This document shows positions 31,812-54,009 of a stretch of 64,000 nucleotides of DNA, one piece after another. Each line of letters starts with the position of its first letter. Positions within the stretch are counted from its first letter, which is position 1. The translations under genes and the position numbers were made by a program. The notes under the pieces are model-generated. The model ran no database searches. It saw only the letters and a list, made by a program, of their open reading frames with translations, and was not told where the DNA came from. The DNA is from Ignatzschineria rhizosphaerae (GTDB lineage Bacteria > Pseudomonadota > Gammaproteobacteria > Cardiobacteriales > Wohlfahrtiimonadaceae): positions 1,360,501-1,424,500 of the forward strand of contig NZ_CP093379.1 of assembly GCF_022655595.1 (NCBI RefSeq), in the 5' to 3' direction.

Positions 31812-34800
31812 TTAAAACTTCATATTAAACCCAATGCGTATGGTTCTTCCCGGCGCTGGGAAATGGGATCTTGTTAAAGGATCAAGATAGTATTGATTCG
31901 TCAGGTTTGTCGCCACAACTTCCATAGACATATCCTTATCAATAGCGTAATTCACCCAAGCATCCAATGTTGTCACTTTCCCCCAATGAATTGGCACATT
32001 CGTTTGCCATGGAGCGATATCCCCAAAGTTCTCTTTATCGGTATTTTTAGAGCCAGCATGATGCAAAATTCTTGTACCGACTTCTAATTTTTCATTAAAG
32101 AATCTGCCACCCATCGTCAAATTTAACGCATATTTAGGCGGCGTCATATTACGCAGATAACTATTATAAAATCCATCCTTTACACAGCTCTTAATACGCC
32201 CATGATAAGGATCTTGAGAAATTGCCGTTGATTCATCACACACTTCATTTTTTAAGAAATAAGAAGCACTAAAGTCTGCAAAAAAACGGCCGTTATCGTA
32301 ACGACTTTGAAGCTCTAAACCACTAATTTTTTGTTTATCAATATTTCTAAGAGAAAATGCCTGGTCTCGATCAATCACATCTTTGATCTCATTATAGAAA
32401 TAGGCTATTTTAAAATCTGCATAACGATCCGCCCCTAATAATTCACTTAAATCATGCAGATATCCAATCTCGATATTAGTTCCCTTTTCTGGTTTTAACC
32501 CAACACCTCGATAAACTGGCGATGCTGAAAATCCAACCGTTGTTTCAAACATACTTGGCATACGTTCTGTTTTTGCATAACGGGTATAGACTCTTGCGTT
32601 ATCTGAAAGCCAAGCGGTTGCTGCAAGAACAGGTTGCCATCCACCGCTACTACTTTGCTTAGGAACAGGCGCAAAACGATCCCCGGTAGTTCCTTGACTC
32701 AATGCTGTATATTGATCTGGATTTCTAGGAAGCTGTGTTGCACCTCGCTCTGCTAAATAACCATTAAGATATGGGTTATCTTCCCGATAATATTTACCAT
32801 CATCACGGACATACCAACCCACTTCACCCACATAAATCTTCTCATAAGGCCCATTAAAAGATTGAGGGCTAACCGTCAATCCTTTTGAGGTCGCATTTTC
32901 TTCAATAAACTTACTTTCAGCTGCCTGATACTTTTTCATAGATTGCATTGAAAGCTCTCGATATTCAGGTGAACCAAAAGCATAGTTTTTAAATATATAG
33001 TCAACCTCTTCCTTATAAGCTCTCTCAGCATCGATCATCTCTTGAGTCTTCTCTACCTGATAAGACATTCTAATGCCGGGTTTCCCAATATCACCAAAAC
33101 TATTTTGTCTCTCTCTGCGCTGTCTATTTAACTGCTCATCATAGGAGGAATAGCCATTTTTACTAGCACCAGCACTTAACTCTAACCATGATAGAGGCTG
33201 CCAATCGAAGCTAAAGCTCATGCGCCACTCTTTGCGCCAGCCTTCTCTAGGTATTGCCCTAAAAGAAGATAATTTTCGTTGTTCTGGATCTAAATACCAA
33301 TCATCACTAGAACTTAATGTCTCATATTGGTAACTTCCGCCAAGCGTTAAGTCTAGCTTTTCTGTAAGCTCCATTTTGTTGCTAATCGTTGCGCCCCAGC
33401 GTTTATTTTTTGAATTTGTTGCCGAAGTTGAATGCCATTTCACTTCTGAATCCCCAGTCCAAGAGGAGATAAATTGTCTTGGATACCCGCCGCTTGTATG
33501 AGTATCTAAAATCGTTCTGGTTCCCCAAATATTTGCTTCAAAATCAATATAAGGATTATCAGGGTTCCATTGATGATTCAAATAAATAGCGGTAGTTTTC
33601 ACCTTACTTAAGGGCCATTGAGGAAATTTACCAATGACTTGTTGGCGCACATAATCCTTCATTGGATTTTCAGGGGCGGTATTAATCATATGATCTAAAT
33701 CGAATAGATGATTTGCAACTCTTGATGGCATTATCTCGCCATATTTCCCCCAAGTATGACGAAGTCCTAGTTCAACAATATGATCTTCATTTGGTCTCCA
33801 AGTTCCTTTCACTAAGAGTGATTGCATCTCATTTGAAGTATTCGGTACTTCATCACCTGGCTTATAAATATCCGCTAAATGCCTTGTATAGTTATCCCAA
33901 TAATCCTTACGTTCTGCGGCATTTTCTCGATTATATTCGCTACCAGAATAATAGTTTGCGCCATTTTTTCCTGAAAAATGATTCCCCTTTTTACGATAAA
34001 CATAGACACCTAACAGATCAAAATCCTGCCATTTTTTACCAGCGGCAAGGCGAATAGCTTTATCATCCCCAAAACGATTTTGCCCGCTTTTTCTTGGCGT
34101 TACCATTACGGCATTATCATAGAAAGAGAACATATAAGGGATGCTTCCTGATCCTAATATATCTGGTAAAGGAGCATTAAGATCAGGCATATTCGGTTTT
34201 ACCGAGTTATTACTACCCTCTATTTTAAAATCAATTCCCCAATCTTTATCTTCACGAACAATATCATTAATGCCAAGTGTCGTAATTGCAACTGCGCCAC
34301 CTACGGAGCTATTAATGCCTCTTGTTAAACTTGGGCCTTTTTCAATGGTAATCCCGCCTATTAACATCGGATCAATATAGTTACGATTATTCGCCCCCGA
34401 ATATCCTCGCCAAACGGTGATCGATTGCTCGGTTCCATCAATCGTTAAGGGAACACGTCCCTGCCCTTGAATCCCACGAATGTTCGGATCTAATGCACCG
34501 CTATTACGCGCATCACCGCTATTAACGCCGACCATTCCTTTAAAAACATCGGCAGGCGCTGCGCCTTTAAAGCGCTCTACTTCCGTTTTATCTCGGTAAA
34601 CAGAAGAGATGCTTCTATCATAAACCTCATCATGCTTCTCTTGATGCCCCTTCCCTTCTAGCGCTTGAGCTTTGACAACAACTTGACCTAAACCCAAAGT
34701 ATTTAAGGTATTTTGCGGCACATCAGCTTCGTCTAACTCTGAGATTTCCTCTGCTGATAACATTGATTGACTCAATAGATAAGTGATCGCAAACGCAAGT

Positions 34801-34838
34801 GGTTGCCAGCGATACCGATTTTTAATCGACATGAACAT
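31812..34838 (-). CDS. TonB-dependent receptor A of the paralogue array (1008 residues)
   Basis: This is a large outer-membrane receptor of the heme/hemoglobin-like TonB family. It has a signal peptide (residues 1-29), and the plug spans about residues 70-195 with DARNSGALDPNIRGIQGQGR, VPLTIDGTEQSITVWRGYSG and ITIEKGPSLTRGINSSVGGA. A barrel of about 800 residues closes with LDPLTRSHFPAPGRTIRIGF ending in Phe. Residues about 570-730 form a charged insert, including DDGKYYREDNPYLNG, that differs greatly from its paralogues. Two Cys (CDESTAI and KSCVKDG) probably pair in a surface loop near residue 875. GGGAAAGAGAA precedes the ATG. It is closest to receptors B and C. The cargo is unknown. Confidence 0.85.
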   Translation of the reverse strand: MFMSIKNRYRWQPLAFAITYLLSQSMLSAEEISELDEADVPQNTLNTLGLGQVVVKAQALEGKGHQEKHDEVYDRSISSVYRDKTEVERFKGAAPADVFKGMVGVNSGDARNSGALDPNIRGIQGQGRVPLTIDGTEQSITVWRGYSGANNRNYIDPMLIGGITIEKGPSLTRGINSSVGGAVAITTLGINDIVREDKDWGIDFKIEGSNNSVKPNMPDLNAPLPDILGSGSIPYMFSFYDNAVMVTPRKSGQNRFGDDKAIRLAAGKKWQDFDLLGVYVYRKKGNHFSGKNGANYYSGSEYNRENAAERKDYWDNYTRHLADIYKPGDEVPNTSNEMQSLLVKGTWRPNEDHIVELGLRHTWGKYGEIMPSRVANHLFDLDHMINTAPENPMKDYVRQQVIGKFPQWPLSKVKTTAIYLNHQWNPDNPYIDFEANIWGTRTILDTHTSGGYPRQFISSWTGDSEVKWHSTSATNSKNKRWGATISNKMELTEKLDLTLGGSYQYETLSSSDDWYLDPEQRKLSSFRAIPREGWRKEWRMSFSFDWQPLSWLELSAGASKNGYSSYDEQLNRQRRERQNSFGDIGKPGIRMSYQVEKTQEMIDAERAYKEEVDYIFKNYAFGSPEYRELSMQSMKKYQAAESKFIEENATSKGLTVSPQSFNGPYEKIYVGEVGWYVRDDGKYYREDNPYLNGYLAERGATQLPRNPDQYTALSQGTTGDRFAPVPKQSSSGGWQPVLAATAWLSDNARVYTRYAKTERMPSMFETTVGFSASPVYRGVGLKPEKGTNIEIGYLHDLSELLGADRYADFKIAYFYNEIKDVIDRDQAFSLRNIDKQKISGLELQSRYDNGRFFADFSASYFLKNEVCDESTAISQDPYHGRIKSCVKDGFYNSYLRNMTPPKYALNLTMGGRFFNEKLEVGTRILHHAGSKNTDKENFGDIAPWQTNVPIHWGKVTTLDAWVNYAIDKDMSMEVVATNLTNQYYLDPLTRSHFPAPGRTIRIGFNMKF

Positions 34839-34882
34839 TTCTCTTTCCCTATAACATTTAATTTTAGTAACAATTATTTACT

Positions 34883-34901
34883 AATGAGAAACGTTATCAT
34901 A
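34883..34901 (-). promoter_or_regulatory. Fur-box-like site before receptor A
   Basis: AATGAGAAACGTTATCATA matches the AATGA/TTATCAT pattern of Fur sites, 45 bases before the start. TTATCATAAGAGA here recurs in the promoters of receptors D and E. The rest of the 34839-35166 gap is AT-rich and shows no gene. Confidence 0.55.
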
Positions 34902-35089
34902 AGAGATATATTTTTACTATTGCTTCTTATTTACAAATAAGAATTTATAATTTTAGAGAATTAATACTATTAACAAATCAATAATGTACAAAAAATTAAC
35001 AATAAAATATTTTTAGTTTTTTATAAAACATTCAAAAATAATCTAAAAAAACTTTAATCACAAAGAGAAATAGTAACCATTAAATAACA

Positions 35090-35122
35090 AAAAGGCTTAA
35101 TCTAGATGACTAAGCCTTTTTA
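35090..35122 (-). terminator. Terminator after receptor B
   Basis: AAAAAGGCTTA pairs with TAAGCCTTTTT, 45 bases below the receptor B stop. Confidence 0.82.
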
Positions 35123-35166
35123 ATTCTACATACTTCATAGCTATTTATGATTGATATATCCTATCT

Positions 35167-38100
35167 CTAGAACTTCATATTAAACCCGATACGAATGGTT
35201 CTTCCCGGCGCAGGGAAGTGGGATCTTGTTAAAGGATCAAGATAATATTGGTTGGTGAGGTTTGTCGCTACGACTTCCATCGACATATTCTCATCAATCG
35301 CATAGTTAACCCATGCATCAAGCGTTGTCACTTTTCCCCAATGAATAGGCACACTAGAAGCCCAAGGTTTTACATCTCCAAAATTCTCTTTATCGGTATC
35401 TTTAGAGCCCGCATGATGCAAAATTCTTGTGCCGACTTCTAATTTTTCATTAAAGAATCTGCCGCCCATCGTCAAATTCAGCGCATATTTAGGCGGCGTC
35501 ATATTACGCAGATAACTATTATAAAAACCATCCTTCACGCAATTGGCGATATTTCCTCTATAAGGGTCTTGCGAAATGGCTGTTGAGCTATCACAAACCT
35601 CATTCTTCAAGAAATAAGAAGCACTAAAGTCTGCAAAGAAACGACCATTGTCATAACGACTTTGAAGCTCAAGCCCACTAATCACCTGCTTATCAATATT
35701 TCTTAAAGCAAAGTTTTGATCTCGATCGATCACATCTTTAATACTATTATGAAAGTATGCAACCTTAATATCCGCATAGCGCTCTGCGCCTAAAAGCTCG
35801 CTTAAATCATGCATATACCCAAACTCAATATTGGTGCCTCTCTCGGGTTTTAAGCGAATATCACTATATTGTGGCGTTGCGGAAAAACCAACCGTAGATT
35901 CAAACATGCTCGGCATTCTTTGTGTTTTAGCATAACGCGCATAAACTCTCGCTTCATCCGTAATCCACGCCGTTGCTGAAAGAACAGGCTGCCATTTTCC
36001 ACTATTTCCTTGCTTTGGAATCTCTGCAAACCTATTACCAACAAAGGGTTTCACAGTTGATTGATAAGCAGTATAACCTGCAATGGCTTTTGCATTTTTT
36101 GAAGCAAGAGACCCATTCATAAAAGGATTATCTTCTCGATAATATTTCCCATCATCACGTGCAAACCAGCTCACTTCACCTTGATAGGTTTCATCACCTT
36201 CCCCATTATTTGACTGATATTTTAGCCCTTGATCCGTGAATTTCTCTTGAATAAATGCTCTTTCAGCTTCTTGATAACGCATCATAGATTCAAAACTAAG
36301 TTGCATACCTTCAGGATCAAAGAAATCATAATTTTCAGAAATATAAGCCATTTCACGATCATAGGTTTCTTTAGCATCGATAATCTCTTGAGACTTCTCT
36401 ACATAAAAGGAGAGCACTTGCCCCTCTCTCCCACTGCTTGCATATTTACTATTTTGTGCCCGTCTTTGTCTATTAAGCTGCTCATCATAAGATGAGTAAC
36501 CCGTTTTTTGTGCGCCGGCACTAATCTCTAACCAAGAGAGCGGTCGCCAATCAAAGTTAAAATTCAAATGCCACTCTTTGCGCCATCCTTCCCTTGGAAT
36601 CGCTCGGTAAGGAGATGCTCCAAAGGCCTCTTTTTCACTATCTTGTAGATACCAAATATCACTTGATTTTAAGGTTTCATGCTGATAACTTCCGCCTATT
36701 ATTAAATCTAAATTATCCGTTAATTCCATCTTATTACTTGTTGTAAATCCCCAACGGCGATTCTTAGAGTTGGTTAAAGAGGTATTTCGAAGCGTCTCTT
36801 TTAAAGCTGGATTTTGCATATACCAAGGATATGCTTCACGGGGGTAACCCCCTGATGTATGGGTATCAAGCTTCGTATTTGTCATCCATAAATTACTCTC
36901 TAAATCAATATAAGGATTATCAGGATTCCATTGATGCTTTAAGTTTAAAGCCGTCATTTTAATCTTACTTAAGGGCCACTGTGGGAGCTTGCCGGCGATA
37001 TGATTCTTTAAAAATTCCTTATATTCAGGGCCCACCATATGGCTCTCACTATCTAATACCATCTCTAGCCACGACGCGGTTCCTGCTAATCTTGAGGGCA
37101 TAATCTCCCCATATTTTGCCCAAGTATGCCTAGCGCCAAACTCTAAAGTTTGATCCTCAGTCGGTCTCCACGTGGCTTTAAAGAGTAATGATTGCATCTC
37201 ATTAGAAGTATTGGGAACTTCATCACCTGGTTTATAAAGCTCTGCTAAATGCCGAGTATAATTATTCCAATACTCCGCATCCCCTGCAGCATGAGCTTCC
37301 CCTTTATAGTAAGAAGCGCCATTTTTGCCGGCATAATGATTACCTTTCTTCCGATAGACATAAGCCCCTAAGATATCAAAATCATCCCATTTTTTACCCA
37401 CGGCAAAACGAACAGCCTGATCATTTCCAAATTGATTTTGCCCGCCACTTTTCGCTCTAACCATCAAATTAGGATCCATAAAGTTAATAAAATTAAAATT
37501 AGGATTATTGGTTTGTGTATTCACTTTTATGCCTTGAGGCAAATTAGGTAACTGCGGCTTTGTGGAGTTATTACTTCCTTCAATTTTTAAATCAATTCCC
37601 CAATCTCGGTCTTCCCTTACAATATCATTAATGCCTAATGTTGTGATCGCAACCGCGCCACCAACAGAGCTATTAATCCCTCTTGTTAAACTAGGACCTT
37701 TTTCAACCGTCATGCCACCAATTAACATCGGATCAATATAGTTACGATTATTCGCCCCGGAATATCCTCGCCAAACAGTAATCGCTTGCTCGGTACCATC
37801 GACTGTAACCGGCACCCGCCCCTGTCCTTGAACACCGCGAATATTAGGGTCAAGTGCGCCACTATTTCGGGCATCCCCGCTATTAACCCCGACCATTCCT
37901 TTAAAAACATCTGCAGGCGCTGCACCTTTAAAGCGCTCTACTTCCGTTTTATCTCGATAAACAGAGGAGATACTTCGATCATAAACCTGATCATGTTGAA
38001 CCTCATGACTTTGCGTATCGACTTTTCCCAGTACTGTAATACTGCCAAGCCCCACTGTATTAAGGGGGGATACAACCGTAGAATCTGCACTGCTTAAATC

Positions 38101-38211
38101 CTCTGAATCTTCGGGGTCAGTAGTCTCTTGTGCAAAAAGCATTTGATTTGATAATAAACAGACTAATACTAATGCAAGAGGCTGCCATTGGTAACGATGT
38201 TTAACCGCCAT
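35167..38211 (-). CDS. TonB-dependent receptor B of the paralogue array (1014 residues)
   Basis: This is a paralogue of receptors A and C, with nearly identical plug (DARNSGALDPNIRGVQGQGR, TVDGTEQAITVWRGYSGANN) and C-terminus (LDPLTRSHFPAPGRTIRIGF). It has a signal peptide ending near LFAQ-ET. It differs from A and C in two places. After the plug it has KVNTQTNNPNFNFINFMDPN instead of the PDINAPLPD segment, and the insert around residues 580-730 is mostly unlike theirs. The pair CDSSTAI and ANCVKDG is kept. GGAAATCGTAT precedes the ATG. Upstream, AATGATCATT (38274-38283) is only a weak Fur-like half site. Confidence 0.85.
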   Translation of the reverse strand: MAVKHRYQWQPLALVLVCLLSNQMLFAQETTDPEDSEDLSSADSTVVSPLNTVGLGSITVLGKVDTQSHEVQHDQVYDRSISSVYRDKTEVERFKGAAPADVFKGMVGVNSGDARNSGALDPNIRGVQGQGRVPVTVDGTEQAITVWRGYSGANNRNYIDPMLIGGMTVEKGPSLTRGINSSVGGAVAITTLGINDIVREDRDWGIDLKIEGSNNSTKPQLPNLPQGIKVNTQTNNPNFNFINFMDPNLMVRAKSGGQNQFGNDQAVRFAVGKKWDDFDILGAYVYRKKGNHYAGKNGASYYKGEAHAAGDAEYWNNYTRHLAELYKPGDEVPNTSNEMQSLLFKATWRPTEDQTLEFGARHTWAKYGEIMPSRLAGTASWLEMVLDSESHMVGPEYKEFLKNHIAGKLPQWPLSKIKMTALNLKHQWNPDNPYIDLESNLWMTNTKLDTHTSGGYPREAYPWYMQNPALKETLRNTSLTNSKNRRWGFTTSNKMELTDNLDLIIGGSYQHETLKSSDIWYLQDSEKEAFGASPYRAIPREGWRKEWHLNFNFDWRPLSWLEISAGAQKTGYSSYDEQLNRQRRAQNSKYASSGREGQVLSFYVEKSQEIIDAKETYDREMAYISENYDFFDPEGMQLSFESMMRYQEAERAFIQEKFTDQGLKYQSNNGEGDETYQGEVSWFARDDGKYYREDNPFMNGSLASKNAKAIAGYTAYQSTVKPFVGNRFAEIPKQGNSGKWQPVLSATAWITDEARVYARYAKTQRMPSMFESTVGFSATPQYSDIRLKPERGTNIEFGYMHDLSELLGAERYADIKVAYFHNSIKDVIDRDQNFALRNIDKQVISGLELQSRYDNGRFFADFSASYFLKNEVCDSSTAISQDPYRGNIANCVKDGFYNSYLRNMTPPKYALNLTMGGRFFNEKLEVGTRILHHAGSKDTDKENFGDVKPWASSVPIHWGKVTTLDAWVNYAIDENMSMEVVATNLTNQYYLDPLTRSHFPAPGRTIRIGFNMKF

Positions 38212-38317
38212 ATACGATTTCCTTTAGAGTGGTTATTTTTTAAATAATCTTAAAAATGGTAAAAGCCTCTATTAATGATCATTGCAAGCAGCAGCTGTAG
38301 CTGTAGCAAAAGCAAAA

Positions 38318-38346
38318 GTGAGCTACCTTATTACAAAGTAGCTCAC
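38318..38346 (-). terminator. Terminator after receptor C
   Basis: GTGAGCTAC (38318-38326) pairs exactly with GTAGCTCAC (38338-38346). On the - strand it is followed by TTTTGCTTTTGC. Short AGC-rich microrepeats lie beyond it (38286-38317). Confidence 0.75.
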
Positions 38347-38393
38347 CTCTCATAAATGTGATTTTAAGCACACCCCTATAGAAGCATTACGAA

Positions 38394-41381
38394 CTAAAAT
38401 TTGATATTAAACCCAACACGAATGGTTCTTCCCGGCGCTGGGAAATGGGATCTTGTTAAAGGGTCGAGATAATATTGATTCGTGAGGTTTGTTGCCACAA
38501 CTTCCATTGTGGTTGTTTCGTCAATCGCATAATTGACCCAAGCATCGAGCGTTGTTGCTTTACTCCAATGAACGGGCACATTTGTCTGCCAAGGTGCGAT
38601 ATCCCCAAAGTTCTCTTTATCGGTATTTTTAGAACCTGCATGATGCAAAATCCTTGTACCGACTTCTAATTTATTATCCATAAACCGCCCACCCATTGTG
38701 AGATTAAGGGCATATTTTGGCGGCGTCATATTACGTAGATAGCTATTGTAAAAACCATCTTTTACGCAAGAAGAGATCCTGCCGTAATAAGGATCCATTG
38801 AGATTGCTGTAGAGTTATCACAAACCTCATTTTTTAAGAAATAAGAAGCACTAAAGTCGGCAAAAAAGCGGCCATTATCATAGCGGCTCTGAATCTCTAA
38901 TCCTTCAATCACCTGTTTATCAATATTTCTTAAAGAGAAGAACTGATCACGATCAATCACATCTTTAATGCTATTTCTAAACCAAGCAATCTTCACATCG
39001 GCAAAGCGATCAGCACCTAGTAACGCACTAAAATCATGTACATAACCAATCTCAATATTCGTTCCTTTTTCTGGCTTTAATCCTGTTCCTAGATAAATAG
39101 GATTTGCCGAGAAACCGACTGTAGATTCAAACATACTTGGCATTCTCTGTGTTTTAGCATAACGCGCATAAACTCTTGCTTCATCGGTAATCCAAGCGGT
39201 TGCAGAGATCACAGGTTGCCATGTACCGCTATTGCCTTGTTTTGGAACTTCAGCAAATGGATCCCCTACAAATGGACGGTTCGTATGGGTATAACCATTA
39301 TTTTCTGGGGCTTTACCACCGATACTTGCAATCTCCCCATTCATAAAGGGATTATCTTCTGCATGGAATTTCCCGTCTTCACGGACATACCATGTTTTAT
39401 TACCTGAGATCGTTGCCGTATTAGGGTCAAAGAACATCGGAACTTTCGCATCAATCCCTTTTGCCGCTAACTCATTATTATAGCTTTGTATAAAATCTCG
39501 GTAATCCATCATCGCCTGTCTTCTAAGCGCTGAATCATCACTATTTCTCCCTGCTTCAAATTTTGCATGTGCATCAAGAAGATCTTGTGTTGGCTCTAAA
39601 GCATAAGTTAAAAGCAAGCCTGGATCGCCTTTACTTGCATAAGCATTATTTCTCGCTCGGCGCTGCTTATTTAACTGCTCATCATAAGAAGAATAACCTT
39701 CTTTTTGCATTCCGGCGCTAATCTCTAACCAAGAAAGCGGACGCCAATCAAAGTTAAAGCGCATATTCCACTCTTTACGCCAGCCTTCACGGGGAATGGT
39801 CCTAAAGGAGTAGCCTTGAACTTCTTTCGGATCTAAGTACCAGATATCGTTTGATTTTAACGTTTCATATTGATAGCTTCCGCCAACCGTTAAATCAAGA
39901 TTCTCTGTTAACTCCATGCGATTACTCGTGGTAATCCCCCAGCGGCGGTTATCTGAGTTGGTTAAAGAGGTATTGCGCCATTTACCGGCAAGCTCAGGGT
40001 GAAGCATACTGCTATAAAACTCACGAGGATATCCGCCTGAAGTATGAGTATCTAAAATAGTTTTTGTACCCCAAAGATTGGTTTCTAAATCAATATAAGG
40101 GTTGTCAGGATTCCATTTATGATTCAAATACACCGCCGTTGTCTTCACTTTGCTTAAAGGCCACTGCGGGAATTTACCAACGACTTGCTGACGTACATAA
40201 TCCTTTAAAGGGTTCTCTGGGGAGGTATTTAAAAGATGGTCTAAATCTGAAAGGTGATTGGCAACCCTTGATGGCATAATCTCCCCATATTTCCCCCAAG
40301 TATGACGAAGTCCAAGCTCTAAAACCTGATCCTCTGTCGGGCGCCATGTCCCTTTCACTAAGATCGATTGCATCTCATTAGAGGTATTAGGCACTTCGCT
40401 TCCTGGCTTATAAACATCGGCAAGATGCTTAGTATAGTTATCCCAGAAATCTTTACGCTCATCGGCATTCTCTTTGTTATATTCGCCTCCGGAATATTTA
40501 CTAGCGCCATTTTTCCCAGAGAAATGATTCCCTTTTTTCCGGTAAACATAGACTCCTAAAAGGTCAAAGTTATTCCATTTTTTACCAGCAGCAATACGAA
40601 AGGCATTATCATCCCCAAAGCTATTTTGCCCACTGGTTCTCGGCGTCACAGAGACTGCATTATCATAAAACGAGAAGAGATAAGGAACATAGCCAGTCCC
40701 TAAAACATCAGGCAGCGGTGCGTTAATATCGGGCATATTAGGCTTTTTAGAGTTATTGCTTCCTTCAACCTTAAGATCAATTCCCCAATCTTTATCTTCC
40801 CCGACAATATCGTTAATTCCTAATGTCGTAATTGCAACAGCGCCGCCCACTGAACTATTAATGCCTCGGCTTAATCCAGGGCCTTTCTCAACTGTCATCC
40901 CCCCAATTAACATCGGATCAATATAGTTACGGTTATTCGCACCGGCATAACCTCGCCATACAGTAATGGCTTGCTCAGTACCATCAATGGTTACCGGCAC
41001 TCTTCCTTGCCCTTGAATCCCTCGAACGTTAGGATCTAGTGCACCACTATTACGAGCATCCCCACTATTAACACCCACCATTCCTTTAAAGACATCCGCC
41101 GGCACGGCGCCTTTAAAGCGCTCGACTTCCTCCTTATCTCGATAAACGGAGGAGATACTGCGATCATAAACCTGATCATGCTTGACCTCGTGGCTCTCAC
41201 TCTCCACTTTCGCAACGACTGTGACTTTTCCTAATCCTACCGTATTTTTACTCTCTTGTAAGATCTCTGAATCATCCCAATCCTCATCCCCTACCTCTTG
41301 TGCAAAGACAGTTGAAGTCACTAATACACAAGCGATAGCAAACGCGAGTGGTGTTAAACGATATCGATCTTTTGTCGACAT
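38394..41381 (-). CDS. TonB-dependent receptor C of the paralogue array (995 residues)
   Basis: This is the third member of the A-C subfamily. Signal peptide ends near TVFAQ-EV. The plug has DARNSGALDPNVRGIQGQGR and MTVEKGPGLSRGINSSVGGA. It shares with receptor A the post-plug PDINAPLPDVLGTGYVPYLF region and, like B, the ARVYARYAKTQRMPSMFEST region, so parts of it resemble different neighbours. The variable insert (about residues 570-710) contains EDGKFHAEDNPFMNG but otherwise differs. It ends LDPLTRSHFPAPGRTIRVGF. GGGAATTAAT precedes the ATG. Only 145 bases separate it from receptor D. Confidence 0.85.
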   Translation of the reverse strand: MSTKDRYRLTPLAFAIACVLVTSTVFAQEVGDEDWDDSEILQESKNTVGLGKVTVVAKVESESHEVKHDQVYDRSISSVYRDKEEVERFKGAVPADVFKGMVGVNSGDARNSGALDPNVRGIQGQGRVPVTIDGTEQAITVWRGYAGANNRNYIDPMLIGGMTVEKGPGLSRGINSSVGGAVAITTLGINDIVGEDKDWGIDLKVEGSNNSKKPNMPDINAPLPDVLGTGYVPYLFSFYDNAVSVTPRTSGQNSFGDDNAFRIAAGKKWNNFDLLGVYVYRKKGNHFSGKNGASKYSGGEYNKENADERKDFWDNYTKHLADVYKPGSEVPNTSNEMQSILVKGTWRPTEDQVLELGLRHTWGKYGEIMPSRVANHLSDLDHLLNTSPENPLKDYVRQQVVGKFPQWPLSKVKTTAVYLNHKWNPDNPYIDLETNLWGTKTILDTHTSGGYPREFYSSMLHPELAGKWRNTSLTNSDNRRWGITTSNRMELTENLDLTVGGSYQYETLKSNDIWYLDPKEVQGYSFRTIPREGWRKEWNMRFNFDWRPLSWLEISAGMQKEGYSSYDEQLNKQRRARNNAYASKGDPGLLLTYALEPTQDLLDAHAKFEAGRNSDDSALRRQAMMDYRDFIQSYNNELAAKGIDAKVPMFFDPNTATISGNKTWYVREDGKFHAEDNPFMNGEIASIGGKAPENNGYTHTNRPFVGDPFAEVPKQGNSGTWQPVISATAWITDEARVYARYAKTQRMPSMFESTVGFSANPIYLGTGLKPEKGTNIEIGYVHDFSALLGADRFADVKIAWFRNSIKDVIDRDQFFSLRNIDKQVIEGLEIQSRYDNGRFFADFSASYFLKNEVCDNSTAISMDPYYGRISSCVKDGFYNSYLRNMTPPKYALNLTMGGRFMDNKLEVGTRILHHAGSKNTDKENFGDIAPWQTNVPVHWSKATTLDAWVNYAIDETTTMEVVATNLTNQYYLDPLTRSHFPAPGRTIRVGFNIKF

Positions 41382-41423
41382 ATTAATTCCCTTTTATATT
41401 TTTATTTAATTTGATCAATAAAC

Positions 41424-44415: not shown

Positions 44416-44438
44416 TTTATTCCCTTTTTAATGAACAA

Positions 44439-44747: not shown

Positions 44748-44777
44748 AAAAAGGCCGCTAATAATAGCGACCTTTTA
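44748..44777 (-). terminator. Terminator after the monooxygenase-esterase operon
   Basis: AAAGG..GCTA pairs with TAGC..CCTTT with two mismatches in the middle, and on the - strand T residues follow. It lies about 70 bases below the esterase stop. Confidence 0.65.
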
Positions 44778-44845
44778 GGGAAACAAATATTCCTTTAGCA
44801 TCTATACAAATGCCGATAACCCTATCAACGAGCGTTACCTCATTG

Positions 44846-45784
44846 TCATTTAAAATACTCTTTAATAAAATCACAAGCTTTGTGAATATAGTGTTCTCCC
44901 AATTTTATTGCTTTTGCCGATGTTAATATTCCATGCATCGTATCTGGCTGATGTTGATAAACCACATAATGCCCCTTCGTTATCAACTTTTGAGCATAAT
45001 AAACCCCTTCATCACATAAAGGATCTAAACCAACAGTCATGATAAATGTAGCAACATCAGATTGTAGATCCTCATAGTAAAGTGGGGATATTTGCGGATT
45101 AGCTGGATCTGTCTCTTTTGTTACATAATGATTGATAAACCATTCCATCGTCTTCTTGGATAACGGATATCCTTCTGCAAATCTTTCATAAGAGGGGCTA
45201 TCCATGATCGCAGTTGTCACTGGATAAAATAAGACCTCTGCTGCAATATGATAATCATTACTCTTATTAAATTGATGCGCTAATATTGTTGCTAAATTTC
45301 CTCCCGCACTATCTCCCATCACAATAATCGACGTTGTTTCTATCTGAAGCAGCTCTCCCTCTTGCCCAAGCCATAGCAAAGCATCGATACAATCATGTAA
45401 GGGATAAGGAAATGGGTACTCCGGCGCCAAGCGATAATCGACGGCAATCACTGAATACTGCGTCTCTTTAGCCACTCGCCGGCAGATAGAATCATGGGTT
45501 TCTAAATCCCCAATAACCCAACCACCACCATGCATAAAGAGTATTCCTGGACTCTTTTCATGAGCATTTTCCCTTGGCTCATAAATTCGTACCGTTATTT
45601 GATTTCCATCTCTTACTGTAATTTGCCGATCTTTCACCGAATGAATCTTATCAGGCTCTAAATCTCCAGTATTATTTTGAACGTAAACATCTCTAGCATC
45701 TTGAACAGATAAGATCTCTATCCCTTGCCCACCCGCTTCCTTAAAAGCTTGTAAGATAACTTGTGTATCTCGATCAACTCTCAT
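44846..45784 (-). CDS. Alpha/beta-hydrolase esterase of the HSL (lipase/esterase) family
   Basis: This is a 312-residue esterase. The oxyanion-hole motif HGGGWVIGDLETHD and the nucleophile elbow GDSAGGN, with the DYRLAPEYPFP segment between them, mark the hormone-sensitive-lipase branch. An Asp in TVGLDPLCDEG and a His in the MHGILTS segment complete the triad. The ATG at 45784 is chosen because AAGGGG lies just upstream and it clears the preceding gene. The longer frame to 45844 overlaps that gene by 50 bases. It follows the Baeyer-Villiger-type gene by 10 bases. An esterase beside such a monooxygenase would hydrolyse the ester it makes from a ketone. Confidence 0.88.
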   Translation of the reverse strand: MRVDRDTQVILQAFKEAGGQGIEILSVQDARDVYVQNNTGDLEPDKIHSVKDRQITVRDGNQITVRIYEPRENAHEKSPGILFMHGGGWVIGDLETHDSICRRVAKETQYSVIAVDYRLAPEYPFPYPLHDCIDALLWLGQEGELLQIETTSIIVMGDSAGGNLATILAHQFNKSNDYHIAAEVLFYPVTTAIMDSPSYERFAEGYPLSKKTMEWFINHYVTKETDPANPQISPLYYEDLQSDVATFIMTVGLDPLCDEGVYYAQKLITKGHYVVYQHQPDTMHGILTSAKAIKLGEHYIHKACDFIKEYFK

Positions 45785-45794
45785 CCTTTTCCCC

Positions 45795-47270: not shown

Positions 47271-47307
47271 CCCCCAAGGTTTTTATATTTGGATCATTTC
47301 AACATCT

Positions 47308-47337
47308 CAATAGCAATAGCAATAGCAATAGCAATAG
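47308..47337. repeat. Hexanucleotide tandem repeat (CAATAG x5)
   Basis: Five perfect copies of CAATAG lie 38 bases upstream of the monooxygenase start. Such a tract can change length by slippage and alter promoter spacing. Confidence 0.85.
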
Positions 47338-47427
47338 ATCTTAAAATAATCTTTTCTTTAAATATCATCTGGGAGTTTTAGATCACTCAACAATAAAACA
47401 ATTCAAAACAAAATAGGAATCATAGAG

Positions 47428-47538
47428 ATGTCATATATCAAACTAACAACAAGCATCCTTATCTTCCTTTCATCATTTTTATCATTTTCATTATTCGTCT
47501 ATCCTTGCAATCAATATTACATCCATTACGGATAAACC
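47428..47538 (+). CDS. Possible 36-residue hydrophobic peptide, doubtful
   Basis: An ATG after AGGAATCATAGAG opens 36 codons giving MSYIKLTTSILIFLSSFLSF and then LFVYPCNQYYIHYG, a single hydrophobic segment. It is antisense-free and lies in the 47271-47827 gap. Nothing else supports it, and a random AT-rich frame could look the same. The rest of the gap holds the hexamer tract and the terminator below. Confidence 0.2.
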
Positions 47539-47741
47539 TACTCCCCCAGCCCTTTACTTGCCATACATTCTTCTGTGTATTTTCAAGAATTTAAGTAGGT
47601 AAAATATTTATCTACTTCCCTCTATTGATACCTATGAAAAATAATTAGTCAATATTTTTAACCATAAAATCAAAATCTTACCTATAAGTACAATTGTTTC
47701 AATTTAGCTTTAAAAGCGGCTCTTTCTCCGCTTGTAACGAC

Positions 47742-47770
47742 AAAAAAGCCCAAAATACTTTGGGCTTTTC
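47742..47770 (-). terminator. Terminator after receptor E
   Basis: AAAAGCCCAAA pairs exactly with TTTGGGCTTTT around ATAC, 58 bases below the receptor E stop. Confidence 0.88.
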
Positions 47771-47827
47771 GTATGATGATCATTGTTTAAAATATTTTTG
47801 TTTTCTTACTGAAAATTTTACTAGACT

Positions 47828-50770
47828 CTAAAAATTCCCCTTTAACCCAATTCTAAATGTTCGACCTGGTGCCGGCATATAAGATCGAGTAAGAGGATCG
47901 ATATAATATTGATTCGTTAGATTATGCCCAGAGAAATACATAGAAAGACTATCATCTATTTTATAATTTAAAAAAGCATCTACTAAAAAGACACTATTCC
48001 AACGAATAGGGGCGTTATTTCCCACCATATCCCCATTTAATTTACCGCTAGCCACCATCATCTCTTCTTGACCATTACGTGCTTTAGCATGGTAATTTAG
48101 TGATGTCCCCACTTCTAACTTACTATCGAAGAATTTTCCGCCAACCGTAAGGTTCACGCTATATTTAGGAATCATATTGGTTCGTAAGAATCCATTAGGG
48201 AAGCCGCCATCAACACATACAGGAAAATCACCAGAAGGGTCCATCACCATGGAAGCGGAATCATCACAAGTTTTATTCTTTAAATTGTAGTTAATTCCCG
48301 CATTAGCAAAGAAACGTTGGCTCTCATAACGAGCTTGAAGCTCTATCCCTTTTGTTTTTTGTTTATCAATTTGAGTAATGTTAAATGATGGGTCACGCTC
48401 AATCACGTTTTTAAGCGTCATATCGTAATAACTGATTTTAATATCACTCGCTAATGTATTGGGTAACCACGATAGATCATAGACATACCCCACTTCAAAG
48501 GTGCGAGATTCTTCTGGTTTTAAATGTACAAAATCTCGGATATTTGTCGTAAACCCAATGGTATCTTCAAACATACTAGGGAAACGTTTTGACTCAGCAT
48601 AGCGCGCATAGACTTTAGAATAATCGGTCATATCCCAACCAATGGATAATATAGGAGACCAAGCATGACCTGAGCGTTTTTGTACAGCGGCATACTTCTG
48701 GTCGCCGGCATCTTTTGTCTTGTGATTAATATTTTTAAAGACATAATTATCCACTTCCTTCCCTGTCCATGGATCTATCCGTTTTCCTTGTGGTACCTTT
48801 CCATTTGCAAGGGGATTATCTTCTCGATGATACTTACCATCTCCTCTTTGCGAAAACTCATAAGTCTCATTAACGCCACCATCAAATGTTTTTGATGTCC
48901 AAAGCTTATGATATTGCTGGAACTTTTCATTATTATTCTCACGCCAGATTTGAAACCCAGGACTGACGTAATCAACCGTTCCAGCCTCATTCATAGCCCC
49001 CGCTGCCCGCAATTCTGCCTCGACTGAATGATAAAAATCATACTCATCTTGGGTAAATGGGCGCGAAGTGTAGATCTCCATATAATCAACCCCATCTTGC
49101 GCATAACGAAGATCTTTACTAAGCCTTTTCTCCGCTAAAAGATCATCATGAGAGTTATAAGAATCTCGTCTTAAGCCGGCATTAATCGTTACTGACGGAA
49201 TCGGCTGCCAAGTAAAATTAAAAAAGAGATTATATTCTTGGCGCCTACCTTCACGGGTTTTAGTGTCAGAACGTAACTTCTCCTTTTGAAAATCAATGCC
49301 GGCAGTAAATTTCAGATCATCCATTAACTCCATGGTATTACTTGCCGTAACGCCCCAACGCGTATTCTTCACATGGGCAAGCCCCTTATTGACATAAGGA
49401 TGAAATAATCCATCACGTACACATTTGCTTTGATCTTTGTTATTGACGATCATGCACCAGTTCCACGCACCATCATAAGAATCACGTCCAAAAATAGAAT
49501 CGCCGGTTGTATAGGTATTACTATCAGTGGTTGTTTTCCAAAGGCTAATATCAGCATCAATCCAACGATTATCTTCAGGATTCCACTGATAACGAATACT
49601 ATAGGCTTTTTGCTTGATATCGCTTTCAGGCCATTGCAGTAATCCTGCATCTTCTGCATTTTCAGAACGAAGTAACCGTGAAGGCATTAACTCCCCATGA
49701 TTAATATCACTATGGCGAGCCATCAATAATAGGCGTTGATCTTCTGGAAGATACCATGTGTTTTTAATTAAAAGGGATTTATTAGCGCTAGAGGTATTTA
49801 AAACTTCAGACCCTGGCTTATAAGTTAATGCCACAGGTGGGACAAAAGCATGCTCCTTTGCACTCTCCGCTGAATAGAATGAACTTCCCCGCTTCCCTGA
49901 AAAATAGTTCCCTTGCTTGCGGTAACTTACCGCTGCCATCAAATCAAAATATTCTGCGCGCATACCGGCAGCTAGTCGCATTGAATAATCCCGGAAATTA
50001 AAGAAATCTGTACTGCTACCACGTTGTTTATTACCAACAAATAAACTGGGATGATCAAGAGGGATCACGCTTGGGTCAAACATTGGGTCGTCACGATAAT
50101 CTGTGCCTAATAGAGACATATTGGGCAAACGAGGTTTTGTTGTATTACTGCCCGTATCCATTTGGAAATCAACACCAAACTTCTGATCCTTAGCAACAAC
50201 ATCATCAATCCCAATCGTGGTCATCGCAACCCCACCACCTACTGATGTTTTTACACCAGAGCCTAACGTCGCCCCTTTTTCTACAGTAATACTGCTAATC
50301 ATACTGGGATCAACATAATTTCGATTACTAACGCCAAAATAACCACGATAAACAGAGATCGCTTGCTCTGTTCCATCAATCGTTACCGGCACTCTTCCCT
50401 GCCCTTGAATCCCGCGGATATTTACATCAATAGCGCCACTATTACGCGCATCACCACTATAAACACCGGTCATACCTTTTAATAAATCTGCAGGAGATAA
50501 GCCTTTATTACGCTGAATCTCATCTTTACCACGATATACAGAGGACATATCCCGGCTATAAACATCATCATAGCCTTGCGCATCACCACTTTCCCCATCG
50601 AATTGAGCTCTTACTAAAATACGGCCGAGCTCTATTGCTTCATGAGTCTCTTTTGAAATACTTTCAGTATCTGAATCTATCGAATCATCTGCCAATACAA
50701 CTTGTGCAGACAATAGACAAATTACCGCAATAGCTAATGGATGTAACCGGCATTTCCCCATCGATGACAT
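47828..50770 (-). CDS. TonB-dependent receptor E of the paralogue array (980 residues)
   Basis: This is the second D-F subfamily member. The first 23 residues are almost identical to receptor D (MSSMGKCRLHPLAIAVICLL). The plug has RNSGAIDVNIRGIQGQGRVP and TVEKGATLGSGVKTSVGGGV. The subfamily Cys pair is CMIVNNKDQSKC, and the common pair is CDDSASM with PVCVDGG. The insert near residues 545-690 carries GDGKYHREDNPLANG and is otherwise unlike D and F. The barrel closes with PLTRSYMPAPGRTFRIGLKG, ending in Phe. AAGGGAAAAAA precedes the ATG, and the promoter module is shared with D. Confidence 0.85.
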   Translation of the reverse strand: MSSMGKCRLHPLAIAVICLLSAQVVLADDSIDSDTESISKETHEAIELGRILVRAQFDGESGDAQGYDDVYSRDMSSVYRGKDEIQRNKGLSPADLLKGMTGVYSGDARNSGAIDVNIRGIQGQGRVPVTIDGTEQAISVYRGYFGVSNRNYVDPSMISSITVEKGATLGSGVKTSVGGGVAMTTIGIDDVVAKDQKFGVDFQMDTGSNTTKPRLPNMSLLGTDYRDDPMFDPSVIPLDHPSLFVGNKQRGSSTDFFNFRDYSMRLAAGMRAEYFDLMAAVSYRKQGNYFSGKRGSSFYSAESAKEHAFVPPVALTYKPGSEVLNTSSANKSLLIKNTWYLPEDQRLLLMARHSDINHGELMPSRLLRSENAEDAGLLQWPESDIKQKAYSIRYQWNPEDNRWIDADISLWKTTTDSNTYTTGDSIFGRDSYDGAWNWCMIVNNKDQSKCVRDGLFHPYVNKGLAHVKNTRWGVTASNTMELMDDLKFTAGIDFQKEKLRSDTKTREGRRQEYNLFFNFTWQPIPSVTINAGLRRDSYNSHDDLLAEKRLSKDLRYAQDGVDYMEIYTSRPFTQDEYDFYHSVEAELRAAGAMNEAGTVDYVSPGFQIWRENNNEKFQQYHKLWTSKTFDGGVNETYEFSQRGDGKYHREDNPLANGKVPQGKRIDPWTGKEVDNYVFKNINHKTKDAGDQKYAAVQKRSGHAWSPILSIGWDMTDYSKVYARYAESKRFPSMFEDTIGFTTNIRDFVHLKPEESRTFEVGYVYDLSWLPNTLASDIKISYYDMTLKNVIERDPSFNITQIDKQKTKGIELQARYESQRFFANAGINYNLKNKTCDDSASMVMDPSGDFPVCVDGGFPNGFLRTNMIPKYSVNLTVGGKFFDSKLEVGTSLNYHAKARNGQEEMMVASGKLNGDMVGNNAPIRWNSVFLVDAFLNYKIDDSLSMYFSGHNLTNQYYIDPLTRSYMPAPGRTFRIGLKGNF

Positions 50771-50789
50771 TTTTTTCCCTTTTTTTTAA

Positions 50790-50891
50790 AATATTTTAGA
50801 TATAAAATTTTGAATAAAAAATATTATCATAAGAGAATCTCATTAGCTAACAATTCTCATTTAGATTCACACTATATTTTCAATTGTTAAT
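50790..50891 (-). promoter_or_regulatory. Duplicated promoter module with Fur-like boxes, copy at receptor E
   Basis: The core 50823-50861 repeats that of receptor D with a single change in the boxes (CCCATT becomes CTCATT), and flanking AT-rich DNA also matches. This shows recent duplication or strong selection on the control region. Confidence 0.6.
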
Positions 50892-50984
50892 AAATAACAT
50901 TTAATTTCATCAATATAGACTCTTTATTTTTAAAATTTTATGCTAAGGAATAGTAAAAATAGCCATTATTCATCTCCTAAAAAC

Positions 50985-51018
50985 AAAAAGCCCGATAGAT
51001 TAATATCGAGCTTTTTTA
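50985..51018 (-). terminator. Terminator after receptor F
   Basis: AAAAGC.CGATA pairs with TATCG.GCTTTT around a short loop. The left arm begins ACAAAAAGCCC, as does the terminator after icd at 54158. Confidence 0.75.
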
Positions 51019-51049
51019 AAATATAAAAATTCCTAATAATTCACCTAAA

Positions 51050-53968
51050 TTATAATTTCCCTTCAAATCCAATTCTAAACGTGCGCCCTGGTGCTGGCAT
51101 AAATGAGCGAGTTAGAGGATCAATATAGTATTGATTCGTAAGGTTATGCCCAGAGAAGTTAATGGACATATCTTTATCAATCTTATACTTCATAAAGAGA
51201 TCAACAACTAATGCAGAATCCCAACGAATAGGGTTATTATTCAACCCTTGAGCAGGAAATAGCCCGTCTTTCATCATCTGCTCTTCTTGTCCATTACGAG
51301 CTTTACTATGATAGTTAAAGTTCGCACTCACCTCTAATTGATTATTAAAGAACTTCCCGCCCATACCTAAGTTAATGCTATATTTAGGAATCATGTGCGT
51401 TCTTAAATAACCAATAGGAAATCCACCATCAACACAAGTAGGGAAATTCCCTGTATAATCTAGTCTCATCGAAGATGATTCATCGCAACTTTTATTTTTC
51501 AAATTGTAATTCATTCCTAAGGTTGCATAGTACTTCCCCGTAGAATATCTCGCTTGGACCTCTATCCCTTTTGTTTTCATGACATCAATTTGTGAAATAT
51601 GCATTTCAGTATCTCGCTCGATGACATTATTAAGCTTTGTATCATAATAACTAATCTTAATATCACTTGCTTCCGTATTAGGTAACCAAGAGAGATCATA
51701 GACATAACCTACTTCAAAATTGCGAGATTTTTCAGGTTTTAAAGTTATCTGATCCCGCACACCTGAATTGAAAAATCCTACGGTTGATTCAAACATACTG
51801 GGGAAACGCGTATCTTTTGCAAAGCGCGCATATACTTTTGAATAATCTGTCATATCCCAACCAATAGAGACAATTGGAGACCATGCATGACCTGATTTTC
51901 TGGTAACAGGCGCAAACTTTTGTGCATCATTTTCAAATGCAGGGAAAACTGAATCTGTACCAGTAACTTTATAGAGAGGTTCAAGCTCTCCCGTTACAGG
52001 ATTCATGACCATTTCTGATGAAATCGTACCATTTAAATAGGGATTATCCTCACGGTAATATTTCCCATCTGCTCTTTGAGAATAAATAAATCCCTCTTTT
52101 ACACGACCTTTATCATATTCAAATGGTGTATTAACAGATTGCTTAAGTGTTACATACTCATCCCATCCATCAGGATTAGAGGCTATCCAATCTATACGCT
52201 CTTCTGTAGTAAAATTATTGAGCATATTGTCAGTATTTTGATAAAAATCATATTCATCTTGAGTGATGGCACGATTCGCCATAATCTTTTGCGAAGAGAC
52301 ATTCATACGTTGCAGGTTATGCTCTTTATTTCGGCGTGCTTGTGCTAAACGATCATCAAATGAAGAGTAAGAATTTCGTTTAACACCCGCATTAATTGTC
52401 ACGCTTGGAATAGGTTGCCATTCAAAATTAAACATTAAACTTGTACTTCTTCGTCTCCCTTCACGAGTATTAGTTGCCGAACGTAACTTCTCTCTTTGAT
52501 AATCAATGCCGGCAGTAAACTTCAAGTTTTCCATTAATAACATAGTATTATTAGCGGTAATTCCCCATCGAGTATCTCTTGAATGTGCCAAAGCTGTATT
52601 TTGATATAAGTGCTGTTGATCATCTCTTACACAGACGCTTGGATCATCAGGGTTTTGATCTCGGCAAGAGTTCCAGCCCCAATCTTGACTTTTCAGATCA
52701 AACACATAACCATCACCGGTATAGGTATCACTATTTGTCACCGTCTGCCATACATTAATATTTGTATCAATCCAAGGATTATCAGCAGGATTCCATTTAT
52801 ACTGCGCACTGTAAGCTCTTTGATTAATCTTACTAGTTGGCCACTGTTGGATTCCCCCATCAGCATAACGAATAATTCGTGATGGCATCAATTCACCATG
52901 CTCAATTAAGCTATGTCTAGCGGTTAGTAATAAGCGTTGCTCATCTGAAAGATACCAAGTATTTTTTAACAATAAGGAGCGATTAGTACTAGAGGTATTT
53001 AAAACTTCAGAGCCGGGCTTATAAATCTCAGCCACATTTGCCATAAATGCTTCATCATCTGCATTTTCAGAATAATACCCAGAAGCGCCTCTCTTACCAG
53101 AAAAATAATTTCCTTGTTTTCGATAACTTACGGCTGCCATTAAATCAAAAATTTCGCCCCTATATCCCCCGGCAATGCGCATTGAGCCATCTCTTAAATT
53201 AAACCAGTCTGATTGACTACCTCGACTTTTAGGATCCTTTAAAATATGAGTACTCGTCTCCCACCCTCCCCCTTTTTTACTAGGGTCATCTCGATAATCG
53301 GTTCCAATTAAAGATAGATCAGGCAAACGAGGTTTGGTGGTATTTGTACTGGTATCCATTTGAAAATCTATTCCAAACTTTTGATCTAAAGCGACTACAT
53401 CATCAATTCCTAAGGTTTTCATCGCAACCCCACCACCTACAGATGTTTTCACATCTGTTGATAAAGTACCCCCTTTCTCAACAGTAATACTACTAATTAA
53501 ACTAGGGTCTACATAATTACGATTACTCGCACCAAAATAACCACGATAAACAGTCACGCCCTGCTCTGTGCCATCAATTGTAACAGGTACTCGCCCTTGC
53601 CCTTGGATCCCACGAATATTAATATCTACAGAACCGCTATTTCTAGAATCTCCACTATAAACACCTGCCATTCCCTTAAAAATATCTGCCGGAGACTTTC
53701 CTTTAAAGCGCTCTATCTCTTCTCGACCACGATATACCGAAGACATATCTTGGTTATATACTTCATCATAGCCTTGTGCATCCCCACTTTCTCCTTCAGG
53801 CTGTGCTTTTACCAAAATACGCCCCAACCCTATCGCATCTTTAGCATCTAATTGTATTTGATCCTTGATTTCAGCTTGCTTTTCATCAGCATAAATAACT
53901 TGCACAGAACATAAACAAAAGACTGCAACCGCTAAAGGATGCAAGCGGAGCTTCCCACTATATGACAT
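51050..53968 (-). CDS. TonB-dependent receptor F of the paralogue array (972 residues)
   Basis: This is the third D-F member and the first gene of the array in the direction of transcription. Signal peptide ends near VIYA-DE. The plug has RNSGSVDINIRGIQGQGRVP and TVEKGGTLSTDVKTSVGGGV, the latter identical to D. The subfamily Cys pair is CRDQNPDDPSVC. The common pair is CDESSSM and PTCVDGG. The insert around residues 540-680 has RADGKYYREDNPYLNG. It ends PLTRSFMPAPGRTFRIGFEG, ending in Leu as in D. AAGGGAATTTT precedes the ATG. Its promoter has a different Fur-like arrangement from D and E. Confidence 0.85.
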   Translation of the reverse strand: MSYSGKLRLHPLAVAVFCLCSVQVIYADEKQAEIKDQIQLDAKDAIGLGRILVKAQPEGESGDAQGYDEVYNQDMSSVYRGREEIERFKGKSPADIFKGMAGVYSGDSRNSGSVDINIRGIQGQGRVPVTIDGTEQGVTVYRGYFGASNRNYVDPSLISSITVEKGGTLSTDVKTSVGGGVAMKTLGIDDVVALDQKFGIDFQMDTSTNTTKPRLPDLSLIGTDYRDDPSKKGGGWETSTHILKDPKSRGSQSDWFNLRDGSMRIAGGYRGEIFDLMAAVSYRKQGNYFSGKRGASGYYSENADDEAFMANVAEIYKPGSEVLNTSSTNRSLLLKNTWYLSDEQRLLLTARHSLIEHGELMPSRIIRYADGGIQQWPTSKINQRAYSAQYKWNPADNPWIDTNINVWQTVTNSDTYTGDGYVFDLKSQDWGWNSCRDQNPDDPSVCVRDDQQHLYQNTALAHSRDTRWGITANNTMLLMENLKFTAGIDYQREKLRSATNTREGRRRSTSLMFNFEWQPIPSVTINAGVKRNSYSSFDDRLAQARRNKEHNLQRMNVSSQKIMANRAITQDEYDFYQNTDNMLNNFTTEERIDWIASNPDGWDEYVTLKQSVNTPFEYDKGRVKEGFIYSQRADGKYYREDNPYLNGTISSEMVMNPVTGELEPLYKVTGTDSVFPAFENDAQKFAPVTRKSGHAWSPIVSIGWDMTDYSKVYARFAKDTRFPSMFESTVGFFNSGVRDQITLKPEKSRNFEVGYVYDLSWLPNTEASDIKISYYDTKLNNVIERDTEMHISQIDVMKTKGIEVQARYSTGKYYATLGMNYNLKNKSCDESSSMRLDYTGNFPTCVDGGFPIGYLRTHMIPKYSINLGMGGKFFNNQLEVSANFNYHSKARNGQEEQMMKDGLFPAQGLNNNPIRWDSALVVDLFMKYKIDKDMSINFSGHNLTNQYYIDPLTRSFMPAPGRTFRIGFEGKL

Positions 53969-54009
53969 AAAATTCCCTTTATTGTATCGATGTATAGTAT
54001 TTACAAAAC

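Follow-up and report, generated by a model that had tools for sequence, protein, structure and literature searches.

Gene content and layout of the receptor block

The window analyzed here is a 64,000-nucleotide stretch of the genome of Ignatzschineria rhizosphaerae, which is 3.07 Mb in size and consists of a single contig. Between leuS and the isocitrate dehydrogenase gene (idh) lies a block of genes (Table 1) that includes six large TonB-dependent receptors, designated A to F. All six reading frames are open, lie on the minus strand and encode proteins of 962-1014 aa, in agreement with the first-pass annotation of this DNA. The Pfam Plug (PF07715) and TonB barrel (PF00593) domains were above their gathering scores in 6/6 receptors, and even the lowest-scoring pair among the six reached 615 bits, while 200 shuffled copies of A gave at most 32.7 bits. 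The receptors had been assigned to two subfamilies, and pairwise comparison bore this out, with identities of 66-72% within A-C, 60-70% within D-F and 36.8-38.5%, over nearly the full length, between the two. The differences claimed for the N-terminus, the sequence after the plug, the cysteine pattern and the last barrel strand were real on comparison. Outside the signal region, A-C have one cysteine pair (C867/C885 in A), to which D-F add a second (C435/C446 in F), and the last strand reads IGFNMKF or VGFNIKF in A-C and IGLQGKL, IGLKGNF or IGFEGKL in D-F. The estimate that receptors occupy about a third of the window was accurate as well, with the six, the seventh receptor and hemO together making up 32.4%.

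Table 1. Features of the leuS-idh block, with positions in the window
Feature	Position	Strand	Length	Remarks
Whole block	26751..54239	.	27.5 kb	leuS to idh
DUF454 membrane protein	27656..28060	-		3 bp from hemO
Heme oxygenase hemO (PF01126)	28064..28669	-		
Seventh TonB-dependent receptor	28977..31292	-	771 aa	passes TIGR01785 curated cut-off; present in congener G007 without the array
Receptor A	31812..34838	-	1008 aa	subfamily A-C; plug and barrel domains; AlphaFold2 model predicts a 22-strand barrel, plug at ~residues 63-199 and outer loop L6 at residues 568-734
Loop L6 of A	32637..33137	-	167 residues	predicted partly helical (AlphaFold2 model); coordinates computed from residue numbers
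Receptor B	35167..38211	-	1014 aa	subfamily A-C
Receptor C	38394..41381	-	995 aa	subfamily A-C; Wohlfahrtiimonas larvae and W. populi copies 82-83% identical
Receptor D	41527..44415	-	962 aa	subfamily D-F; W. larvae copy 77% identical
Abhydrolase_3 / hormone-sensitive-lipase-like esterase	44846..45844	-		50-bp overlap with FMO gene; outside receptor family
FMO-like flavin monooxygenase	45795..47270	-		between D and E; unmatched in the G008 array stretch
Receptor E	47828..50770	-	980 aa	subfamily D-F
Receptor F	51050..53968	-	972 aa	subfamily D-F; predicted loop L6 at residues 538-690
Loop L6 of F	51899..52357	-	153 residues	predicted partly helical (model); coordinates computed from residue numbers

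Two non-receptor genes that the first-pass annotation did not mention, coding for the esterase and the FMO, separate D from E, so that the row reads A-B-C-D / esterase-FMO / E-F. The intergenic gaps along the array measure 145-557 bp. On the A side, the seventh receptor, the heme oxygenase and the DUF454 gene adjoin; a 188-aa reading frame at 26983-27549 had no Pfam match. A barrel-family search of the host genome (17 matches, with three fragments merged) gave 14 receptors, half of which sit in the block. The FMO-esterase pair (44846-47270) looks like a system for ketone oxidation and ester hydrolysis, and 37 bp before the FMO start codon there is a perfect repeat of five CAATAG hexamers (47308-47337), a candidate phase-variable promoter repeat. 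Inside the receptor genes, the repeat search found just weak, short repeats of the phase-variable type. Elsewhere in the window, a row at 11358-20531 holds an ABC transporter, two family-3 binding proteins, two luciferase-like monooxygenases, an FMN reductase, an M20 peptidase and two GNAT acetyltransferases, and resembles the S-alkyl-cysteine salvage operons.

We scanned 31000-50900 for promoters and terminators and found totals at shuffle level. Since the four terminator-like sites with the longest stems are intergenic (31657-31628, 35122-35088, 38350-38314 and 44776-44749) while the totals match those of shuffles, separate transcription of the receptor genes is only suggested. The best Fur-box-like sites upstream of the six agreed at 11-14 of 19 positions, a level that 14 to 94 out of 100 simple shuffles also attained, and none of these sites stood out; iron control of the receptors would be a prediction of the role proposed below.

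Predicted fold and divergence of the paralogues

The structures of A and F were modeled with AlphaFold2 (mean pLDDT 81.0 and 80.2, respectively), and 22 strands and 11 outer loops were read by eye from the two models. When the identity between paralogues was determined by region, the predicted plug (80-91%), the strands (69-84%) and loop L11 (90-100%) were well conserved, whereas L6 was the most divergent large loop with an identity of 33-47%. The N-terminal region was 35-74% identical overall (37-47% within A-C and 51-74% within D-F), and the A-B and B-C pairs were also low in L1 (33-35%) and L3 (39-43%); the N-terminal region thus diverges as strongly as L6, and so do L1, L3 and L4 in certain pairs. 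L6 of the W. larvae copies was 74% identical for C and 69% for D, indicating that these two types keep their own version of the loop across genera. The copies of A and F in the congener Candidatus Ignatzschineria merdigallinarum (G008) were just 58-59% identical in L6.

Among solved structures, HasR in complex with HasA and heme had the fold closest to both models (Z 31.7, rmsd 4.5 and 658 aligned residues for A; Z 32.6, rmsd 3.0 and 641 aligned residues for F), and it ranked first in Foldseek and in VIA-align 2. ChuA/ShuA came next (Z 28.4-29.4 for A and 29.5-30.5 for F), followed by receptors for B12, siderophores and copper (Z ~25-28 for both models); this ranking of folds gave no sign of B12 or sugar as cargo. 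The seventh receptor exceeded the curated cut-off of the heme/hemoglobin receptor model TIGR01785 (432.6 versus 316.85 bits) and also that of TIGR01786. The six stayed under both, with 203-223 versus 316.85 bits for TIGR01785 and 160-190 versus 323.75 bits for TIGR01786. We also looked for a heme-ligand histidine in an alignment of the six with 65 Slam-linked rows, from which HasR itself was absent. No histidine column was common to the six and most of the 65 rows, and the single histidine kept in 49 of the 65 is replaced by Lys, Arg or Glu in the array receptors. As the family as a whole does not conserve a heme-ligand histidine, the lack of one in the six is uninformative.

Relatives, carrier searches and origin of the block

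By sequence, the six are homologous to the hemophilin receptors (HphR of Acinetobacter), with residues 61-972 of F being 37% identical to the receptor of an A. baumannii locus (L042). This locus, which holds a hemO-DUF454 pair, was identified from its gene content as the hemO/hemophilin locus, and its hemO and DUF454 genes fit the hemO cluster described in PMC8560813. Relatives were collected in one scan of species genomes with patterns derived from A-F, and the best 80 of the 96 found were placed in 79 loci. In searches with profiles built from the neighbours, Slam lay no farther than 6 kb from the receptor in 67 of these loci, hemophilin in 68 and both in 67; as the 79 include many near-identical Stenotrophomonas records, 67/79 is not a count of independent cases. 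The neighbour-built hemophilin profile matched the solved hemophilins 8gmm, 8gm3, 7re4 and 6om5 (E 1e-77 to 9e-49), and Pfam itself named HphA_N, HphA_C and SlipAM in three scanned loci, namely L042, L023 of a Neisseriaceae MAG and L106 of the same-order genome G019. Beside a homologue on a Klebsiella plasmid lie a TonB and a gene annotated as surface lipoprotein assembly modifier.

Twelve of the 79 loci had no hemophilin and Slam pair. Four of these lie on cut contigs (L039, L046, L072 and L096; L046 still has hemophilin), and four belong to Ignatzschineria or Wohlfahrtiimonas, which are all the loci of that family within the 79-locus set. The other four are from Vibrio (two, one of them, L095, with a weak 96-bit Slam fragment), Iodobacter and Providencia. 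The Iodobacter violaceini locus (L094) has two tandem receptors of the HphR-like family (6604-9507 and 9662-12592) with no Slam or hemophilin in the locus, and is thus a second case of orphan tandem copies. G019 has one receptor that adjoins both partners (L106) and two without them (L105 and L107); the L105 receptor (11019-14627) has 1203 residues, and its fetched stretch contained neither Slam nor hemophilin. Across the alignment of 65 receptors, 50 columns are invariant. Both columns of the L9 cysteine pair (C867/C885 of A) are kept in all 65 Slam-linked rows and in all six array receptors, and the L11 region has a single length throughout; these two features were recognized in this analysis and do not derive from any published definition.

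G019, which belongs to the same order, served as the positive control for the carrier and exporter profiles. The Slam profile A2 matched none of the nine genomes of the genus and none of the six genomes of group g2, which includes W. larvae and W. populi. It was positive in G019 (2.3e-113), in 13 of 14 genomes from other families of the order and in the two g4 genomes, which are of the same family. The Slam result rests on A2, which replaced an earlier search with PF04575 that matched no control genome. The hemophilin profile A3 was positive in G019 (7e-64) and found nothing in the nine genomes of the genus or in g2. The Pfam family TbpB_B_D (PF01298) likewise gave no match in the nine genomes or in g2; this search works, since 14 of 31 genomes were positive, although the best match in G019 (7e-24) is another protein and the G019 hemophilin, at 8.6e-6, was just above the cut-off. 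For HasA, PF06438 matched 0/9 genus genomes, but no control genome matched either. Since no hemophilin or Slam match was found in their own genome, the six are filed as HphR-related orphans and not as hemophilin receptors.

In the congeners G003, G004 and G005 the leuS-idh distance is 175-266 bp, so the site is empty, and the block, including the heme oxygenase, was gained at this junction. G007 has a gap of 13.6 kb with the seventh receptor, hemO, DUF454 and other genes but no array. In G008 the gap is 17.2 kb and contains F, a truncated E without plug, a frameshifted C, A, the seventh receptor and hemO; the E lacking its plug (~residues 30-345) and the C split by the frameshift lie at 14666-19954 of locus L100 and may be errors, since G008 is a draft MAG. 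For G001, G002 and G006, leuS was absent from the stretch fetched around idh, and the G001 contig is short. With 175-266 bp in three genomes and 13.6-27.5 kb of differing cargo in three others (L138-L140, L143 and L152), the junction has the appearance of a hotspot for insertions in this genus. HemO (PF01126) was found in three of the nine congeners, each time in this block and including both array carriers, and was absent from G019 and from the Wohlfahrtiimonas genomes with C or D types. Array-type receptors (>200 bits) were present in 5 of 57 relatives searched and in 2 of 9 genomes of the genus. Among the matches listed, the nearest named relative by its receptors was Ca. I. merdigallinarum (74%). 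A class-wide search, which scored at most two candidates per genome and was not used for copy numbers, matched 4 of 369 genomes at E <=1e-100. In a viral collection, 56 stretches matched the patterns and none encoded a relative by tblastn.

The first-pass annotation explained the array by tandem duplication and subsequent divergence of a single segment. Tandem duplication fits inside each subfamily, but a single tandem origin for all six is doubtful. A is 46% identical to two receptors of a same-order relative and 46-47% to those of a Neisseriaceae MAG, versus 39-41% to D-F. Trees were made from selections of an 87-row alignment, which left out the cut or broken L039, L066, L076, L091 and L096 and frames of <750 residues or <300 bits (the structure alignments had 65 and 53 rows); the first tree had 39 rows and two part frames of G008. 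A-C and D-F were each starred groups in the trees. In the first trees, A-C joined L106/L107 of G019 (support 90-91, unstarred) and D-F lay near L105 of G019 and L045/L078 of Pseudomonas. A single clade of A-F was rejected with 33 rows and columns filled in 60% of rows (p-AU about 0.005), a set that excluded the seventh receptor and several further rows, the long L081, L094, L099 and L108 being among them. It was not rejected (p 0.18) with 27 rows and columns filled in 90% of rows, a set from which the closest D-F relatives and further long rows (L105, L045, L078, L072, L074 and L043) had been removed as well; this second test, with fewer rows and columns, weakens the first. In the 27-row tree, A-C with L106/L107 were starred at 95. 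We favour two origins for A-C and D-F.

Unlinked single copies in related strains would speak against the tandem account, and the evidence on this is divided: in W. larvae a C-type and a D-type receptor lie on separate contigs, whereas the second Ignatzschineria (G008) has a shorter version of the array at the leuS-idh site. Against G008, the window is 88% identical in the C part, 79% in A and 75% in F, versus 97% in leuS. Across genera the order is reversed, as C and D are 82-83% and 77% identical to their Wohlfahrtiimonas copies, versus 67-68% for leuS. Vertical descent predicts receptors less alike than leuS across genera too, so the likeliest reading of these identities is that the C and D types were transferred between Ignatzschineria and Wohlfahrtiimonas. 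Recent gene conversion was considered and not adopted: the fourfold sites are 33-44% identical within the subfamilies, but they give little information on age because they are near saturation (leuS only 53% between the two congeners).

Proposed role and comparison with known systems

The first-pass annotation had offered heme as a guess. The guess is now firmer on account of the HphR-like family, the HasR fold, the adjoining hemO and the match of the seventh receptor to TIGR01785, although the six themselves remain under the cut-off of that model. We propose, with a probability of about 0.6, that the six belong to the HphR branch within the HasR-like family and import heme without the help of their own hemophilin, taking it from different external donors by way of L6. 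Because the plug, the strands and several of the inner loops are kept from one barrel to the next, all six would most likely transport the same small cargo, heme. Because each receptor has its own version of the outer loop L6 (~155-170 residues), this loop would most likely serve in the docking of different heme-carrying proteins. With no Slam, hemophilin or TbpB-type carrier found in the genome, the donors would be external, either hemoproteins of the host or hemophores made by other bacteria. TonB would drive the passage of heme, and the heme oxygenase encoded in the block would open it. Orphan receptors are plausible, since in PMC8560813 HphR is modeled to take heme from hemoproteins also alone and HasR to function in the absence of HasA, though less efficiently.

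A more specific and rather doubtful form of this proposal is that the lineage, without hemophilin and Slam, kept and multiplied its receptors and tuned their L6 to the hemophilins of its neighbours in maggots and wounds, the genes being traded singly between fly-associated genera. Hemophilin homologues are given for Providencia rettgeri and Proteus mirabilis in PMC8406197, and newly hatched housefly larvae are dominated by Ignatzschineria, with Providencia also living there, according to PMC12295176. Theft of hemophores would therefore be possible, and such an array might, speculatively, be likened to the xenosiderophore receptors for siderophores.

We weighed three other explanations. The six could serve a hemophore made by the organism itself and non-homologous to hemophilin or TbpB, in keeping with the secreted partner that adjoins most of the relatives; HasA could be that partner, as PF06438 had matched no control genome. 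We hold this to be improbable, since the identified neighbours in the block are hemO, DUF454, another receptor, the FMO-esterase pair and IDH, with no candidate gene among them, the 188-aa reading frame has no Pfam match, and one carrier would leave the strong L6 differences among six receptors unexplained. Just as improbable is a cargo different from heme, for instance zinc taken from calprotectin-like proteins, as for TdfH, or iron from transferrin-type proteins. TdfH (9oaa) matched the plug of F (E 4.8e-13) and both models by fold (E 6e-23 and 6e-25), and five of the six had weak plug matches to the transferrin/lactoferrin model TIGR01776. However, HasR and ChuA/ShuA fit better, the genomic partners of the homologues are hemophilins, and HemO is present in the block.

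It is also conceivable, though unlikely, that the six are redundant for one donor and that their loops differ through predation by phages and bacteriocins or through immune pressure. The low L6 identity of the A and F copies of two congeners whose leuS is 97% identical points to a fast change for which no new donor is needed, and loop divergence could be an escape from phages, bacteriocins or antibodies. On the other hand, L6 is far better preserved between the C and D types of different genera than between paralogues of the same genome, and none of the six reading frames is broken.

The hemophilin receptors known so far work together with a secreted carrier. If our proposal of orphan heme receptors with their own docking loops is true, a six-receptor array without a carrier shows that this receptor branch can live alone and diversify, and offers a natural panel of one transport core with six docking loops in which the choice of donor is directly testable. 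It would also allow one to test whether bacteria that live in insect larvae and wounds steal heme carriers from one another. None of the papers listed in searches of open-access literature describes such an array in its title or the opening of its abstract; two hemophilin-family papers (J Bacteriol 2024) may mention one.

The six resemble HphR of A. baumannii in their near-full-length homology (37%), the L9 cysteine pair, the length of L11 and the hemO-DUF454 pair. They differ from it in that HphR is a single gene with hemophilin and Slam adjoining, whereas the array has six copies and neither partner was found. The L042 receptor has a weak match to the STN domain (E 4e-4, below the cut-off) and its locus has sigma and anti-sigma genes, read from translations without a family search; no counterpart of either was found with the six. 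L6 is longer in the six, with 154-169 aligned residues versus 135 in HphR. HrpA of Xenorhabdus, at the TXISS-1B locus, is a TonB-dependent receptor in a hemophilin/Slam locus according to PMC8406197. Unlike for HrpA, which was compared by description only, no Slam or TbpB_B_D-type cargo was found in the array genome.

HasR of Serratia marcescens is both the best solved fold and the best PDB sequence match to the six, at ~20-21% identity. An N-terminal signalling (STN) domain is a feature of HasR, as are heme-ligand histidines in the plug and an outer loop. The six have just Plug and barrel domains, with no STN domain at E <=0.001, and no HasA was found in a search without a working control. 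TdfH of Neisseria gonorrhoeae (PDB 9oaa; 901 aa), which has a role with zinc and calprotectin, matched F and the A. baumannii L042 receptor at the level of the plug; it came behind HasR and ChuA/ShuA in fold and was not listed for A at E <=0.01. The Hgp hemoglobin/haptoglobin receptors of Haemophilus influenzae occur as several paralogues of ~1000 residues per genome with overlapping hemoprotein donors, and their genes are dispersed and phase-variable.
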